Below are positions 25,054 through 31,758 of a stretch of DNA of 35,068 nucleotides, piece after piece (position 1 is the stretch's first letter; the number at the start of each line of letters is the position of its first letter). The notes under the pieces are model-generated. The model was not told where the DNA came from, did not search any database, and saw only the letters and a list, made by a program, of their open reading frames with translations. Origin of the DNA: an uncultured Clostridia bacterium. Lineage in GTDB: Bacteria; Bacillota; Clostridia; Oscillospirales; Ruminococcaceae. Where the stretch lies: contig CAMELR010000028.1 in NCBI GenBank assembly GCA_945923775.1, positions 1 through 35,068 of the forward strand. The letters are read 5' to 3'. The translations under genes and the position numbers were made by a program.

Positions 25054-25815
25054 ATGGAGCTTACAAGATTTATAGACGACTACGCCGACGACATTTACGC
25101 GCTGGCGCTGATCACAACAAAGAATTTCGATTCCGCCAAGGAGATCTTCGTGCGGAATTGCTTTGCATGTCCGGAGATAGCTGATAGCACCGAGCTTCCG
25201 GAGATGCTGAAAAAGGCGTACCCTATGTGCCGCGAGGCCGAGGCAAACGATTCGGCAGTCACTCTTACAGGCATTGAGCTTGACGGAAAGAAGCAGCAGC
25301 TTCTGGAATCCGTGCTGAGGCAGCCGTTTATTGTTCGCGCGATCATACACATGCGCTGGGAAAACGACCTGGAGCCTGAGCAGATCGCGAAGCTGACCGG
25401 GGAAAGCCTCCGTTACGTGAACAATACCATGGAGGAACTTCCCGAGGAACTCACCCGGGAACTTGACAAGAGCTACAAGGACATCTGTTTCAGGATAAAA
25501 GCGGACGACAAGCTGAAATCTTACGTTATCCGAAGCATGAATTCCGGTAAGAAGCGCCAGTTTGAAGTAAAGGGCGAGGCTGTTCCTACCCATAAATGGA
25601 CGAAGCAGCAGAAAACGGTGATTATCATTATAGCCGCGGTCATTACCGTGGTGATATGCATTGTTGTGCCGCTCATCGAAAGCTACTACCAGATGAGGAA
25701 GGACGAGAATTTCGAGTCTTTTGAAAATGTTGCTACCGAGGAGATGTTCCGTTATACTTCCGAATCGCCCTCTGTTCCCGGCGATCAGTTAAACCTGACA
25801 GGTTCCGATAGTTAA
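25054..25815 (+). CDS. Sigma-factor-like protein with a C-terminal membrane anchor
   Basis: The 253-residue protein looks like a diverged ECF sigma factor. Residues 5-37 (FIDDYADDIYALALITTKNF) have the spacing of a region 2 start, and 80-130 resemble region 4, with a helix-turn-helix at about 106-129 (LEPEQIAKLTGESLRYVNNT). A basic segment follows (KKRQF, 166-170), then a single membrane helix at about 188-207 (VIIIIAAVITVVICIVV) and 45 polar residues outside the cell. Region 2 seems short for promoter melting, so it may be a DNA- or RNA-polymerase-binding regulator and not a working sigma factor. It starts one base after hisE, without a Shine-Dalgarno. Family assignment is by pattern only. 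Confidence 0.6.
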   Translation: MELTRFIDDYADDIYALALITTKNFDSAKEIFVRNCFACPEIADSTELPEMLKKAYPMCREAEANDSAVTLTGIELDGKKQQLLESVLRQPFIVRAIIHMRWENDLEPEQIAKLTGESLRYVNNTMEELPEELTRELDKSYKDICFRIKADDKLKSYVIRSMNSGKKRQFEVKGEAVPTHKWTKQQKTVIIIIAAVITVVICIVVPLIESYYQMRKDENFESFENVATEEMFRYTSESPSVPGDQLNLTGSDS

Positions 25816-25877: not shown

Positions 25878-25936
25878 GTATAGGTATGGGAGAAATATCC
25901 CGCGCCTTAACAAAAAAATTAAAGGGACGTGTGCAG

Positions 25937-28393
25937 ATGGCGCAGTTTTTCAATTTCAAAGAAGATTATTTCGGGCTGACAGAACGTGACGTTCAGAAGA
26001 ACATCGACCTGTACGGCTATAATATATACACCAAAAAAGAACAGCCGCGGGAAAGATTCAACCCGGGCAAGGTGATTTTGTCGCCGTCGGTGCTGCTGAT
26101 GTTCATTGCCGGAGTGCTCAGCTTTTTCAGCAGTGGAATACTCACCGGTATAGTCATCATACTTATCGACATCGCATGGTGTGTGGCAAATATCCGTATC
26201 GGTCAGCGTTCGGACGAGCGGCTTGACGAGTTCCACGAATCAACGGTGATGAAGTACCGTGTGATACGCCAGGGAAAACTGGAGCTTGTCGAAAAGGAAT
26301 TCATCGTTCCGGAGGATCTGATTTTAGTTCAGGCGGGCGAGAGCGTTCCGGCGGACGCATTGATACAGGAATGCCGCGACCTGACCGTTGACGAAAGCGT
26401 GTTCACCGGTTCCAACAAGCCTGCGGCAAAGTACGCAGGCGGCATTTCGAAATCAGAACTCAAGCCTACTTTTGTCTACAGCGGAACAAAAATCTTGACG
26501 GGCGTTGCAGTCTGCAAGGTAAGCGCGACCGGCGTAGACACCAAGTATTACCATAAGGTAGGTGAACCGGTTCCGAAACATTGCTATTACACCACGATGG
26601 AGCGTATAATTCAGAAGCTGCTTCCGCTTTGTTCGGCAACAGCGGCTGTTCTGGCGCTCATCTCAATGGTCGCGTGGATACTTTACGGCAACGAGGTGTT
26701 CGAATCTGCAATGCGCGGTATCACACTGGGACTTTGCTTCCTTCCGGCGGGTATCGACACGATCATAAGGATCTACTACACAAAATGCGCTTCCGAAATG
26801 TCTGGGAAAAGCGCGATCGTAAAATCGCTGTCCGATATTGAAAAGCTGAATTCCATGTCGGTGCTCTGCGTTGAAAAGGAAGGCGCGATATCAAAGAGCC
26901 GTCTTGAGGTGCAGACCATCTACACTCCGAGCGAGGAGCTTCTGTACAAGGTAGCCGCTCTTGCATGCGATCCCGACACCACCGACGACGCAGAACGCGC
27001 TCTTATGGTTAAGGCGGCGTTCTATGACGAGCGAATTACCGACGTTTACAGTAAAAACAAGTTTATTGAGCGCATTCCTGACACCAACGAGTTCATGAGC
27101 GGCGCTCTGTGGGAAGTCGGCGGCTCCAGACTCTACTGTATTAAGGGCACTCCCGAGCAGATACTCCCGCTGTGCAAATTCCGCGGCGAGGAGCTGTTCG
27201 CAGCCCAAAAGATGAAGAAGGAGTACTATTCCCACGGCTGGCAGGTAATGGCGATTGCCTGCGCTGACGCGGAGGAACGCGACTGCGATGAAACGGCCGG
27301 ATTTGCATACACGTTTGTTGGATTTATTGCGTTCTCGTCACCGATAAGGGATTCCGTTCCGAATGCGGTCAAGACCTGCCAGCGCGCCGGAGTACGCGTT
27401 GTGATGTTCACCGAGGATAATGCGGAATCCGCAGCGGCTACCGGAAAGATGATCGGACTTTCAGGGAAGGTAGTCACTGGAAAGAGCATTTCTGAATCCG
27501 TAAAATACGGCACGGAGCTTCCGCTTGACGCTGACATCTATGCAAGGGTAACTCCCGAGCAGAAGCTGTATGTTATCGAGCAGATGAAAAAGAGCGGTCA
27601 GACCGTGGCAATGACCGGAACCAGACCAGAGGACGCCGAAGCAATGGAGCGTTCCGATATCGGCATAACGATTTTGGAAAACACCACCGGAAGCGCATAC
27701 GAAGCCGCCGATGTCATTATGCACGATGATAATTTCTCGGCGATTGCCGGTATGATCGCGTCGGCGCGGCAGGTACACCGTAATATAAAGCGGGCAAGCG
27801 CTGTCATGATTTCAGGGTACCTTGCACTGGTGCTGCTGAATATGCTCAATCTTTTCGGCGACGCTCAGCTAATGCTTAATCCCGCTATAATCGCGGTACT
27901 TACGATGTTCGTGCTCCCGGCGGCCGCGCTTGCCGACCTGAACAATCATGCGGATATGAAGGGCTTCATGCCGCCGTCTGAGTTCATCACGACCCGCAGG
28001 ATAAACTATCGGTTCATTCTGCTTGCAGTCATTGTGGGAGCGCTCTGCGGAGCGGTTTCGATTGCTTCGTACATGTTTATGTACAATGGCACGAATGTCG
28101 AGTTCGCCAGAAGCTGCGCTTTGCTTTCGTTCGGGTTCTGCACGTCCTTGTTTACTTTCATCAACCTGGCTCCGGGAAATCCCTTCGTTGGATTTGCCTC
28201 TGCCGGAAAACCGGCGGTTATCGGAGTTCTTGCGCCCGCTGTTACAGCGGTCCTGCTTGTGTTCATTCCGGGGGTAAATACGATTTTCGGTATGACCGGA
28301 ATCGACATTCTGGCAACGTTTATCTCAATTATGACGGGCGTTATTCCTGCGCTGGCCTACGTGGTCGTGCGTTCGATAGTCAAGTTTGATTAA
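25937..28393 (+). CDS. Catalytically degenerate P-type ATPase homologue (pseudo-pump)
   Basis: The 818-residue protein has the layout of a P2-type cation ATPase: N-terminal part, M1-M2, actuator, M3-M4, P and N domains, M5-M10. The key residues are changed. The phosphorylation motif DKTGTLT is EKEGAIS (E313 for Asp). The actuator TGES is TGSN (157-160). The M4 PEGL is PAGI (270-273). The hinge TGDGxNDAPAL is TGTRPEDAEAM (560-570; only D566 kept). DPPR is SSPIR, and MITGD is MFTED. Ion-site N, T and D residues of M6 are hydrophobic. KGTPE (403-407) of the N domain remains. I start at ATG 25937 after AAAGGGA; an ATG at 25886 would be nearly leaderless. The frame is intact, so it is not a decaying gene. 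Ion pumping is unlikely; a sensor or regulatory role is possible. Confidence 0.85.
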   Translation: MAQFFNFKEDYFGLTERDVQKNIDLYGYNIYTKKEQPRERFNPGKVILSPSVLLMFIAGVLSFFSSGILTGIVIILIDIAWCVANIRIGQRSDERLDEFHESTVMKYRVIRQGKLELVEKEFIVPEDLILVQAGESVPADALIQECRDLTVDESVFTGSNKPAAKYAGGISKSELKPTFVYSGTKILTGVAVCKVSATGVDTKYYHKVGEPVPKHCYYTTMERIIQKLLPLCSATAAVLALISMVAWILYGNEVFESAMRGITLGLCFLPAGIDTIIRIYYTKCASEMSGKSAIVKSLSDIEKLNSMSVLCVEKEGAISKSRLEVQTIYTPSEELLYKVAALACDPDTTDDAERALMVKAAFYDERITDVYSKNKFIERIPDTNEFMSGALWEVGGSRLYCIKGTPEQILPLCKFRGEELFAAQKMKKEYYSHGWQVMAIACADAEERDCDETAGFAYTFVGFIAFSSPIRDSVPNAVKTCQRAGVRVVMFTEDNAESAAATGKMIGLSGKVVTGKSISESVKYGTELPLDADIYARVTPEQKLYVIEQMKKSGQTVAMTGTRPEDAEAMERSDIGITILENTTGSAYEAADVIMHDDNFSAIAGMIASARQVHRNIKRASAVMISGYLALVLLNMLNLFGDAQLMLNPAIIAVLTMFVLPAAALADLNNHADMKGFMPPSEFITTRRINYRFILLAVIVGALCGAVSIASYMFMYNGTNVEFARSCALLSFGFCTSLFTFINLAPGNPFVGFASAGKPAVIGVLAPAVTAVLLVFIPGVNTIFGMTGIDILATFISIMTGVIPALAYVVVRSIVKFD

Positions 28394-28402
28394 GGAGTTT
28401 AT

Positions 28403-29275
28403 ATGAAAAAGGTTCTGGGATACCTGAAACTGATCCTTTGCGGAATGGTTTTCGGAGTTGCAAACGTTATCCCCGGCGTATCCGGCGGAACAATGCTGGT
28501 AGTCTTTGGTATCTACGACCAGCTTACAGAGGCTATTTCAGGCGTGAAAGCGATCATCAAAAATATTGTTTTCCTGATATTCTTCGGAGCAGGCGCTGGA
28601 GTCGGCATACTTGGATTTGCTTCGCTTATTAAGTATCTGTTCGACAACTTCGGCGTTCAGACCAACATGTATTTCATCGGTCTGATACTCGGCAGTGTTC
28701 CGATGATTTATCATATGGGAACCGCCGAAAAAAAGGTGAAGCCGCTTTGTATTCTTCCGCTTGTTCTGGCGATGGCCGTCGTTATCGGACTTACAATGCT
28801 CAACGGCTACATGGAAGCGAACGAACTTATTCCGGCCGCCGAGGCGGTCGAGGGATTCAGCGCGTTCATGACAGTTAAACTGCTGGTTTGCGCGTTCATC
28901 GCTGCGGTCGCGATGATAATTCCGGGACTGAGCGGCTCTTTTGTAATGATGCTTCTCGGAGTATACAATACGGTCATCAATGCGATACAGATAAAGGCGC
29001 TCAATTTTTACGTGATCATTCCGGTGGGAGTGGGCGTTCTGCTCGGAGTTATCCTGGGTGCGAAGCTCATCTCCACGCTTATAAAGAAGTACAAACTAAT
29101 GGTTTACAGCGTGATAATGGGTCTTGTTATCGGCTCCGTTTATGCGATTCTTCCTTCGGGATTCGGATTTAATCTCCAGACCGGATACGGATTTGTATGC
29201 CTGCTGTTTGGCGTACTTACTTCGATTCTCGTTGAGAAGCTCGGAAAGGCTTCCGAGACATCGCAGGCTGACTGA
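28403..29275 (+). CDS. popT: DUF368 family undecaprenyl-phosphate translocase (PopT)
   Basis: The 290-residue membrane protein belongs to DUF368: MKKVLGYLKLILCGMVFGVA leads into NVIPGVSGGTML, and the second half repeats the motif as IIPGLSGSFVMMLLGVYN. About eight hydrophobic segments are visible. DUF368 proteins (PopT) have been shown in other bacteria to return undecaprenyl phosphate across the membrane for reuse in wall synthesis; that it does so here is inferred. The start follows AAGGAG, 9 bases after the pseudo-ATPase gene, so the two are co-transcribed. uppS, which makes the precursor of the lipid it moves, is about 20 kb upstream. Confidence 0.87.
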   Translation: MKKVLGYLKLILCGMVFGVANVIPGVSGGTMLVVFGIYDQLTEAISGVKAIIKNIVFLIFFGAGAGVGILGFASLIKYLFDNFGVQTNMYFIGLILGSVPMIYHMGTAEKKVKPLCILPLVLAMAVVIGLTMLNGYMEANELIPAAEAVEGFSAFMTVKLLVCAFIAAVAMIIPGLSGSFVMMLLGVYNTVINAIQIKALNFYVIIPVGVGVLLGVILGAKLISTLIKKYKLMVYSVIMGLVIGSVYAILPSGFGFNLQTGYGFVCLLFGVLTSILVEKLGKASETSQAD

Positions 29276-29285
29276 ACATAATTAA

Positions 29286-29317
29286 GGCTGGGAACGCATA
29301 ATTCCCAGCCGTTTATT
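29286..29317. terminator. Bidirectional terminator between popT and sigG
   Basis: GGCTGGGAA (29286-29294) pairs with TTCCCAGCC (29302-29310), a 9-bp stem. GTTTATT follows on the plus strand and TTAATT on the minus strand, so it can end transcripts of the two converging genes. Confidence 0.85.
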
Positions 29318-30086
29318 ATATCCGGTTCTTGATTTTTTGCAGCGCGCCTTTTTCCAGCCGGCTGACCTGAGCCTGACTTATTCCTATCTCCTTAGCGACT
29401 TCCACCTGAGTTTTCCCGCGGAAGAATCGCAGGTCGAGAATGTGCTTCTCACGGTCGCCCAGTGCATGTATAGCTTCCTTGAGCGAAATTTCGTCGAGCC
29501 AGTTATCGTCATCGTTGTGGTCGCCGAGCTGATCGAGGACGTAGATAGTATCGCCGGATTCTGAGAACACAGGCTCGTAAAGCGAGATTGGCTCGCTGAC
29601 TGCTTCGAGAGCGATAACCACGTCGGAGCGTTCCGCGCCTATTTCCTTTGCGATCGCTTCGATTGTAGGCTCCCTGCCGTTTGCCGATGTGAGGCGTTCC
29701 CGCGCCTGCATAGCCCGGTAAGCGAGGTCCCTCATTGAGCGGCTGACGCGCACCGGCGAGTTGTCGCGAAGGTAGCGCCGGAGTTCGCCCTGTATCATCG
29801 GAACGGCATAGGTTGAGAACCTGACCGGCTGAGTGATGTCGAAGTTGTCTATTGCCTTGATAAGACCGATACACCCGACCTGAAACAGGTCGTCTGGACC
29901 TTCGCCGCGCCCGGCGAACCGCTGAATCACGCTCAGAACCAGCCTGAGATTTCCGTTGATAAGCTCCTCCCGGGCCTGCATGTCGCCCTGCTTTACTTTT
30001 TTAAGCAGCTCCATCTTCTCGCTTTCGCGGAGCACCTTGAGCTGCGAGGTATTTACGCCGCTGATTTCGACCTTGTTGTAATACAA
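29316..30086 (-). CDS. sigG: Sporulation sigma factor SigG (late forespore)
   Basis: SigG drives the late gene set in the forespore after engulfment. The 256-residue protein aligns with Bacillus SigG throughout: NKVEISGVNTSQL, ARE-LINGNLRLVLSVIQRF, DDLFQVGCIGLIKAIDNFD, RRYLRDNSPVRVSRSMRD, and the region 4 helix-turn-helix TQVEVAKEIGISQAQVSRLE. I choose the UUG at 30086, because GGGAG (30099-30095) lies 8 bases upstream and the N-terminus then matches Bacillus (MxxNKVEI-GV). The GTG at 30095 would abut the Shine-Dalgarno. An inverted repeat covers this ribosome-binding site. It is the third gene after spoIIGA and sigE; no good sigma-F promoter was seen. Confidence 0.95.
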   Translation of the reverse strand: MYYNKVEISGVNTSQLKVLRESEKMELLKKVKQGDMQAREELINGNLRLVLSVIQRFAGRGEGPDDLFQVGCIGLIKAIDNFDITQPVRFSTYAVPMIQGELRRYLRDNSPVRVSRSMRDLAYRAMQARERLTSANGREPTIEAIAKEIGAERSDVVIALEAVSEPISLYEPVFSESGDTIYVLDQLGDHNDDDNWLDEISLKEAIHALGDREKHILDLRFFRGKTQVEVAKEIGISQAQVSRLEKGALQKIKNRI

Positions 30087-30088
30087 AT

Positions 30089-30142
30089 AAACCACTCCCG
30101 ACCTGCTTGATTTTGTACAAGTAGTATTGTCAGGAAGTGGTT
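30089..30142 (-). promoter_or_regulatory. Inverted repeat over the sigG ribosome-binding site
   Basis: In the minus-strand mRNA, AAACCACT (30142-30135) pairs with AGTGGTTT (30096-30089), which overlaps the last bases of the Shine-Dalgarno and lies just before the UUG start. In a spoIIG read-through transcript it should reduce sigG translation. Confidence 0.55.
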
Positions 30143-30168
30143 TTTCTATTCTGTGAAATTTTCCCTGT

Positions 30169-30894
30169 TTAGTTGCAGACTCGTTCGAGTTCCTCGCGAA
30201 GCTGCTTTATAATGCGCTTTTCCAGCCTTGAAATATAGCTCTGGGAAATCCCGATTTCGTCGGCGACCTCCTTTTGCGTTTTCTCTCTGCCCCCATTCAG
30301 CCCGAACCGCATTTCCATGATTTGGCGCTCCCGGGGAGTCAGATGGTTTACAGCGTCGTGGAGCAGCTTCTTTTCGGTTTCGTCCTCGATTCGGGCGTTT
30401 ACGCAGTCGCTGTCCGTGCCGAGAACGTCAGAAAGCAGCAGCTCGTTGCCGTCCCAGTCAACGTTCAGCGGCTCGTCTATTGAGATCTCGCAGCGGCGCT
30501 GGCTGGTCTTTCTGAGGTACATCAATATCTCATTTTCAATGCAGCGCGAAGCATAGGTCGCTAGCTTTATATTCCGGTTCACGCTGAATGTGTTTACCGC
30601 TTTAATAAGTCCGATGGTTCCGATCGAAACAAGGTCGTCCAGACCTACGCCGGTGTTCTCGAACTTCTTCGCGATGTAGACCACCAGCCGCAGGTTGTGA
30701 ACGATTAGAGTTTCCCGGGCAGCCGCGAAGTCTGTCTCAAGCAGCTTGAACGCCTGTTCTTCCTCCTCCCGGGTGAGGGGCGGGGGAAGCGACTCGGAGC
30801 CGTTTATGTAATACACGCCGGTATCGCCGCCGGAAGCGTACTTTATAAACGCTTCAAGTCCTTCGTCCAGCAGTTTCTTCAAAAAATCAAGCAT
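30169..30894 (-). CDS. sigE: Sporulation sigma factor pro-SigE (early mother cell)
   Basis: SigE directs early mother-cell transcription. The 241-residue protein starts with a short hydrophobic/amphipathic pro-sequence ([20 protein letters not shown]) that holds it inactive at the membrane until SpoIIGA cuts near [14 protein letters not shown]. After that it matches Bacillus Sig[65 protein letters not shown] and [20 protein letters not shown]. The start follows AGGAGG. An open frame reaches back to 30963, but the ribosome-binding site and family length fix the ATG at 30894. spoIIGA ends 16 bases upstream. Confidence 0.97.
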
Positions 30895-30910
30895 GATAAT
30901 TCCTCCTGTT

Positions 30911-31732
30911 TTATATAATGATGTTGGGATCAAATATGCAGTCTGCTCCGGAGAGGGGCTCACGAGTTACCCCCACGAGGGCGTCAGCAGGTTTTTCGTT
31001 GATAAGCACTTCGGCAGAAAACACCGGTATCACGCCTTCTGAAGTTATCGTGCGGCAGGGAGCCAGCCGAAGCCCCTCCAGCCCCTCTGAACAGCCGTTA
31101 AGGTAGTTCGTGACCTGCGGGGGAGATATTTCAGCCACTTTGCCTATTGACGTTATCACGACAGGTTTTCCGGTGAAGCTGTCTCGCATTGAATTTCCAG
31201 TGTCCGCAAGTCCGTCCAGAGTGATTTCTGTAATGCCGCTTCGGATTTTAACGACAGCGTGGCTCTGCGGTTTTCTTCTGTCGATGATAATTCTGAATAC
31301 GCGGAATCCGCCATACAGTGCGGCTGTAAACAGTGCTGCGGCAATGATCGGGATATCAAAGTACGTGGTACAATTGCGCATGAACATGCCCGCCGGAGCT
31401 GCAATGTTCCACAGAGCTATCATTGCTCCGCCGAAGATGAAGCTCACGACCAGGAATGACAGCGTGCTGATAAGAAAGTCGATTTTGTTCTGTCTGCCAA
31501 ACGCTGCGAAAGTTATGCCGACCCCGAGCGCTATTTTGATCAGCACGCATAGAGCCGGGTTCAAATCCGGAACCAGAATCAGCAGCGAACCGACCGCTCC
31601 CACGGCCGAAGCAATGATAACCCGCCGCGGAGAAACATTGCGTCGCAGCATGAGCGAGGTACCGCGAACCAGAAAGTAGTTTATGTAGAGATTCACTACT
31701 AAAAGGACGTCAATATATATAACCAAAGCCAT
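30911..31732 (-). CDS. spoIIGA: Pro-SigE processing aspartic protease SpoIIGA
   Basis: A membrane-embedded aspartic protease, activated by the forespore signal SpoIIR, that removes the pro-sequence of SigE. The N-terminal half has about five membrane helices ([20 protein letters not shown] first) and the C-terminal half is a soluble protease domain with the active-site D177 in [11 protein letters not shown] prefer the ATG at 31732: its MALVIYIDV matches MKIYLDV of Bacillus, and the predicted transcript start (near 31752) leaves a GTG at 31747 almost without leader. The ribosome-binding site is weak with either choice. Sequence conservation outside the motif is low, which is normal for this family. 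Confidence 0.93.
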
Positions 31733-31758
31733 CACCAACTTGTACACTTTCTTTTACT

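Follow-up and report, generated by a model that had tools for sequence, protein, structure and literature searches.

In three related genera, a cation-pump-type P-type ATPase has lost the residues of its phosphorylation cycle and of ion binding, and two of these genera have retained it in genetic partnership with one DUF368/PopT-type translocase. These sequences suggest a second use for a dead pump, as the partner of a likely transporter of the cell-wall lipid carrier. Among kinases and proteases, pseudoenzymes are well known; our literature search found no paper joining 'P-type ATPase' with 'pseudoenzyme', and among the matches listed, judged by title and the start of the abstract, neither such a bacterial family nor such a gene pair. 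The pair is a new combination of two known protein families. Regulation and recycling of the lipid-carrier pool is raised as an open question in the available part of PMC10902140, and a catalytically dead pump encoded with a translocase of the undecaprenyl phosphate (C55-P) type would give a concrete entry to the control of that pool and a testable handle on it. If the proposal is true, the P-type ATPase fold can serve as a regulator, and recycling of the cell-wall lipid carrier is under cytosolic control.

A P-type ATPase without its catalytic motifs

The window, meaning the whole 35,068-nucleotide stretch of DNA analysed, encodes the pseudo-P-type ATPase at 25937..28393 (+ strand). Its translation gives 818 residues and a stop, with no internal stop, in agreement with the intact frame described in the initial annotation; the start at 25937 was preferred over the longer ORF start at 25886 because it yields the N-terminus common to relatives. 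The Pfam domains E1-E2_ATPase, Hydrolase and Cation_ATPase_C all score above gathering, and the general P-type model TIGR01494 is passed (136.1 bits vs a cut-off of 62.3). No NCBIfam pump equivalog cut-off is reached, the best being TIGR01647 (241.2 vs 615.5 bits), and the kdpB model gives 68.5 bits against a cut-off of 527.9. Among solved structures, the closest in sequence is the Listeria Ca2+-ATPase lmo0841 (LMCA1; E 1.8e-50). In the predicted structure the P-type ATPase fold is kept in full, the 12-sequence model (mean pLDDT 62.2, pTM 0.61) being sufficient for the fold and not for side-chain contacts. By descent and fold, the window protein is a member of the P-type ATPase superfamily.

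The motifs of the catalytic cycle are replaced one after another along the + strand. TGSN stands for the actuator TGES, with S159 at the phosphatase Glu (26405..26416); PAGI in M4 for PEGL or PEEF, with A271 at the ion-ligand Glu (26744..26755); EKEGAIS for DKTGT, with E313 (GAA at 26873) at the phosphorylated Asp (26873..26893); SSPIR for DPPR (27335..27349); FTEDN for TGDN, with Gly changed to Glu (27407..27421); and TGTRPED for TGDGxND, of which the last Asp alone is kept (27614..27634). The ion-ligand site of M6 is a hydrophobic stretch (27905-27919). All of these apart from FTEDN had been pointed out before, and all are present in the window translation. LMCA1 has DKTGT, TGES, PEAL, DPPR, TGD and TGDGVND, unlike the window protein, which lacks every one of them. 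The window protein lacks the M4 Glu and the M6 acidic ligands expected of a Ca2+-ATPase or other cation pump, and the DKTGT Asp, the TGES Glu and the intact GDGxND Mg2+ site expected of a P-type ATPase that works as an enzyme. The initial annotation had concluded that every step of the cycle is lost, which is a little overstated, since K403 (KGxPE), K543 (TPExK) and D566 (the last Asp of GDGxND) remain; with these retained, the pseudo-ATPase may still bind nucleotide or phosphate. The recurrence of the motif changes throughout the window's genus (g1) shows that they are not due to chance.

Motif residues were counted in 95 family proteins: 33 from g1, 61 from a sister genus of the same family (g16) and one from a third genus (g99). 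The count omits 8 of the 41 matched g1 genomes, of which 6 were read by pattern and 2 (G217, G233) lack coverage of the Asp site. In what we take to be SERCA numbering, the full catalytic set of Asp351, Asp703, Asn706, Asp707 and Glu183 occurs together in 0 of the 95 proteins. Singly, Asp351 is kept in 45, Asp703 in 7, Asn706 in 1, Asp707 in 88, Glu183 in 1 and the M4 Glu in none; each of these residues is present in 18/18 canonical relatives. The M6 Asp (17/18 in the nearest canonical group) is hydrophobic in 92/95 family proteins, Thr in 2 and a gap in 1. The Lys of DKTGT is retained in 95/95, K543 as Lys or Arg in 95/95 and K403 as Lys in 88/95. In the N domain, the Phe and Lys of the PFxxxxK/AFxxxxK motif of 6 canonical pumps, presumably matching SERCA F487/K492, are gone from the 12 g1 proteins compared.

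The initial annotation had raised the question of whether E313, TGSN and TGTRPED are conserved among homologues. Within g1, Glu replaces the phosphorylated Asp in all 39 genomes that cover the site (33 aligned and 6 by pattern), the Glu of FTEDN is found in 33/33 proteins, and across the family the TGES Glu and the GDGxND Asn persist in a single protein each. The same Asp position in g16 holds Asp in 45, Glu in 13 and Gly in 3 of 61 proteins, and in the g99 member (genome G099) it holds Asn; on a quick tree, at least 4 changes between the Asp and non-Asp states are required. The g16 proteins lack the M4 Glu in 61/61, the phosphatase Glu in 60/61 and Asn706 in 60/61. Since 45 of the 61 retain the Asp in the absence of these other residues, its loss does not define the family: the other three were probably lost first, and the Asp afterwards, more than once.

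Selection, gained residues and descent

The full-length frame is under strong selection, as had been proposed. In 15 close g1 pairs, dN/dS (Nei-Gojobori) lies between 0.029 and 0.121, well below 1, with the ratios rough in 11 of the 15 because dS exceeds 1 there. In the 11 pairs that return a value for it, the segment around the dead phosphorylation site gives 0–0.07 and ranks lowest, alone or tied, in 8. Of 32 E313 codons, 27 are GAA and 5 GAG, so that the tree requires 4 or more synonymous changes while Glu stays constant. Mean pairwise identity (g1/canonical), indicative in that domain borders were set by hand and the two samples differ in breadth, is 0.59/0.64 for the whole protein. The g1 proteins are more alike than the canonical sample in the actuator (0.70/0.61) and N domain (0.62/0.55) and less alike in the membrane parts (N-terminus with M1-2, 0.55/0.62; M3-4, 0.49/0.72; M5-10, 0.46/0.59); the first and second P segments give 0.78/0.78 and 0.68/0.73, respectively.

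The family has also gained invariant or nearly invariant residues. E222, near the start of M3 (26600..26602, + strand), is Glu in 95/95 family proteins and Gln in 17/18 canonical ones; R278 in M4 (26768..26770, + strand) is Arg in 95/95 and Thr in 17/18 canonical proteins; and S681 is found in 94/95, where 18/18 canonical proteins have Pro. An N-terminal motif of F7, Y11 and G13 is present in most members. E222/R278 and the N-terminal motif are candidate contacts.

The pseudo-ATPase is carried by 41 of 43 g1 genomes, and by 27/27 of those with ≥90% completeness and ≤5% contamination. Eleven contigs, labelled as uncultured Clostridia or Oscillospiraceae and in part from deer gut, carry it at 52–83% identity. 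At the cut-off used, 61 of 71 g16 genomes have the gene and 10 have no family match; one member was found in g99. The g1 and g16 proteins and the single g99 protein form one clade (SH-aLRT 100), on quick trees that carry SH-aLRT support alone and long-branch warnings, worst for L013, whose placement is unsure. An order-wide profile search of 394 genomes scored 4 g1 and 14 g16 members at 804–1247 bits, and the 17 others listed at no more than 517; the lowest family score over all g16 was 642 bits. Twelve of these 17 lower-scoring proteins were read (L102–L113) and have canonical motifs, L102 being the same gene as L015. On contig C53 of genome G218 the pseudo-ATPase is split over two abutting frames, possibly an assembly error.

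The DUF368/PopT-type partner gene and its surroundings

Nine nucleotides downstream of the pseudo-ATPase lies a DUF368/PopT-type gene of 290 residues (28403..29275, + strand), with AAGGAG ahead of its start. Its product contains the PF04018 domain (140.4 bits) and both PGxSG motifs (PGVSGG and PGLSGS). Its score on the NCBIfam PopT equivalog is 151.1 bits against a cut-off of 400, and we therefore treat it as a DUF368 homologue and not as a certified PopT. A terminator-like hairpin follows (29286..29310, + strand), identified by a consensus match only, with 7 such sites in the stretch and 4.7 expected. DUF368/PopT proteins are described in the available portions of PMC9876793 and PMC12826051 as returning C55-P to the inner leaflet; that the window protein moves C55-P is assumed here from its family.

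The link between the two genes, noted before in the window, proved to be an adjacency conserved in two genera. Wherever the contig continues, a DUF368 gene lies downstream of the pseudo-ATPase on the same strand (94/94 g1 and g16 loci), with a gap of at most 165 nt in 87 and of 388–1060 nt in 7. It follows in 38 of 41 g1 genomes and 56 of 61 g16 genomes; the other 3 g1 ATPase matches run into a contig end, and the other 5 g16 contigs stop 1–192 nt past the ATPase frame. Between stop-delimited frames, the gap is at most 165 nt at 49 of the 56 g16 loci, and all 7 long ones fall here. Four of these long gaps were read (L190, L197, L219, L221), and three (L190, L219, L221) contain an ORF. At the g16 loci L219–L222 the pair stands 844–1060 nt apart, and the intervals of L219 and L221 hold a metallophosphoesterase-like ORF of 275–284 codons, as read from its sequence, which may be a third member of the module.

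In a tree with 41 other DUF368 proteins, the 25 partner proteins group in a single clade (SH-aLRT 97), and the 14 compared all keep the first PGVSxG and the second PGxSGx motif. Very roughly 80–110 residues are inserted between the two halves of the partner proteins of g16 (e.g., L065) and some of g1 (L037, L038); one piece of this insertion gave only a sub-threshold Pfam match, Flocculin, at E 1.1.

The association was not found with other copies of either gene. DUF368 copies off the pair's contig occur at 16 places in 15 g1 genomes, and in G211, G213 and G215 one of these may be the partner itself; for 11 of the 16, no P-type ATPase lies within ~1 kb (0/11). Nor was one found within ~1.5 kb at 30 DUF368 loci sampled from the family's other genera (0/30), and no DUF368 gene lies in the flanks of 21 canonical P-type ATPase genes (0/21). 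Among 29 other DUF368 loci across the phylum, one (L243, genome G894) has a P-type ATPase fragment in its flank; this is unrelated, being a canonical heavy-metal-like pump (PCAL, DKTGT, GDGIND) with another ORF in between. DUF368 does not generally depend on the pseudo-ATPase, given that 10 of the 71 g16 genomes have no family match and that DUF368 occurs without it in g16 and elsewhere. In genome G099 the pseudo-ATPase has a PGA_cap gene next to it, and pieces of DUF368 are on other contigs. No DUF368 match was obtained in genome G212, which is rated 100% complete and has its pseudo-ATPase at a contig end.

The rest of the neighbourhood is less constant. Upstream, at 25054-25815 (+ strand), the window encodes a protein of 253 residues that the initial annotation had called a membrane-tethered sigma-like protein; it contains one strong hydrophobic segment and matches no sigma-70 family in Pfam. 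A membrane protein is indeed there, but it is not a conserved neighbour: of its matches in 13 other g1 genomes, 11 are on a different contig than the pseudo-ATPase, that in G216 lies ~143 kb away, and that in G198 is in a genome without a pseudo-ATPase match; the match in G094 is weak, at 62 residues. We therefore rejected it as part of the system. Downstream, at 29316-31747 (- strand) and convergent to the pair, are sigG, sigE and a third gene that we take to be SpoIIGA-like. Of the neighbourhoods compared, 12 of 13 in g1 have sigG near the pair, against 0 of 6 in g16, so part of the linkage within g1 may be general synteny. In the six g16 neighbourhoods, no window gene besides the pair matches, indicating that the pair outlived its surroundings.

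Possible roles of the pair

Two known systems resemble this arrangement in part. KdpFABC likewise combines a P-type ATPase-fold subunit with a transporter of another family (PMC10654040, available text), but KdpB has ATPase activity, and what the complex transports is K+, not lipid. In the apicomplexan proteins TgATPaseP-GC, PfGCalpha and PfGCbeta, a P4-ATPase-fold module is joined to another activity; the excerpts at hand describe the ATPase domain of PfGCbeta as degenerated (PMC6592433) and the catalytic Asp of PfGCalpha as required (PMC7858053). These cyclases are eukaryotic fusions, whereas the bacterial pseudo-ATPase is a protein on its own, with a lipid translocase gene next to it. The partner gene belongs to PF04018 with both motifs kept, as in DUF368/PopT translocases elsewhere; for those, no partner protein is named in the available parts of PMC9876793 and PMC12826051, and no such ATPase adjoins the loci examined.

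Loss of the cycle residues, strong selection and the tie to one DUF368 clade together are best read as pointing to a domesticated pseudo-P-type ATPase that serves the translocase as a partner, regulator or scaffold and does not hydrolyse ATP, and the conserved cytosolic domains fit a regulator or scaffold. This supports and extends the main inference of the initial annotation, selection for a non-transport role, for which the sensor, scaffold or lipid-linked regulator named there are candidates. We propose that the pseudo-ATPase and the PopT-type protein form a membrane complex in which the former would hydrolyse no ATP. Its actuator, P and N domains would sense some state of the cytosol or bring in cytosolic proteins of wall synthesis, and its membrane domain, marked by E222/R278, would touch PopT or the lipid head group, thereby setting when or where C55-P is returned. 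Taken as a non-hydrolysing protein in complex with PopT that sets the return of C55-P, this proposal seems to us more likely than not. Its fully specified form, a two-component C55-P translocase with a P-type ATPase as non-hydrolysing regulatory subunit, a new E222/R278 charge pair and cytosolic control, is more tentative, and we would put its chances at somewhat short of even. Counting against the proposal are the sigG synteny in g1, the different neighbour in G099, the missing DUF368 match in G212, the long gaps at 7 g16 loci, the occurrence of DUF368 without the pseudo-ATPase, the retained K403, K543 and D566, and the score of the partner below the PopT cut-off.

Several other explanations share part of this evidence. 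The pseudo-ATPase may be a scaffold for the stability, assembly or localisation of PopT, with no sensing; pair adjacency, selection and a fold kept in full would all suit such a factor, but the greater likeness of the A and N domains than in canonical pumps, with a membrane part that is less alike, would be odd for a pure membrane chaperone, and DUF368 genes elsewhere do without such a partner, leaving this account unlikely. Adjacency can also reflect co-regulation without contact and proves shared transcription at most, so the protein could have an envelope role independent of PopT. The PGA_cap neighbour in G099 and the frequent presence of sigG in g1 would agree with merely co-regulated genes; against this, six g16 neighbourhoods keep the pair alone and the partner DUF368 proteins are a distinct clade, and we regard an independent role as improbable. 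An enzyme of altered chemistry is a further candidate, namely an ATP-driven or nucleotide-gated lipid pump that has PopT as a subunit and works through the remaining P-domain residues. Such a pump could draw on K543, K403 and the last GDGxND Asp, on the Asp kept in 45/61 g16 proteins and on the first GDGxND Asp kept in 7/95, and KdpFABC is a precedent for pairing with a foreign transporter. It would have to work with Glu for Asp in every g1 protein covering the site and without the phosphatase Glu (lost in 94/95), Asn706 (94/95) and the M4 Glu (95/95), each of which is present in 18/18 canonical proteins; we consider it quite improbable.

A gene decaying under relaxed selection and beside PopT by chance would explain the many motif changes and a protein that passes TIGR01494 and no equivalog cut-off, but not a gene present in 41/43 g1 genomes (27/27 of the more complete), with dN/dS no higher than 0.121 and the pair found in two genera; its probability is very small. 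Relaxed selection or a single odd strain, which the initial annotation had named as grounds for refutation, is rejected by the genus-wide presence and low dN/dS, as catalytic loss goes together with a retained fold and strong selection across the genus.
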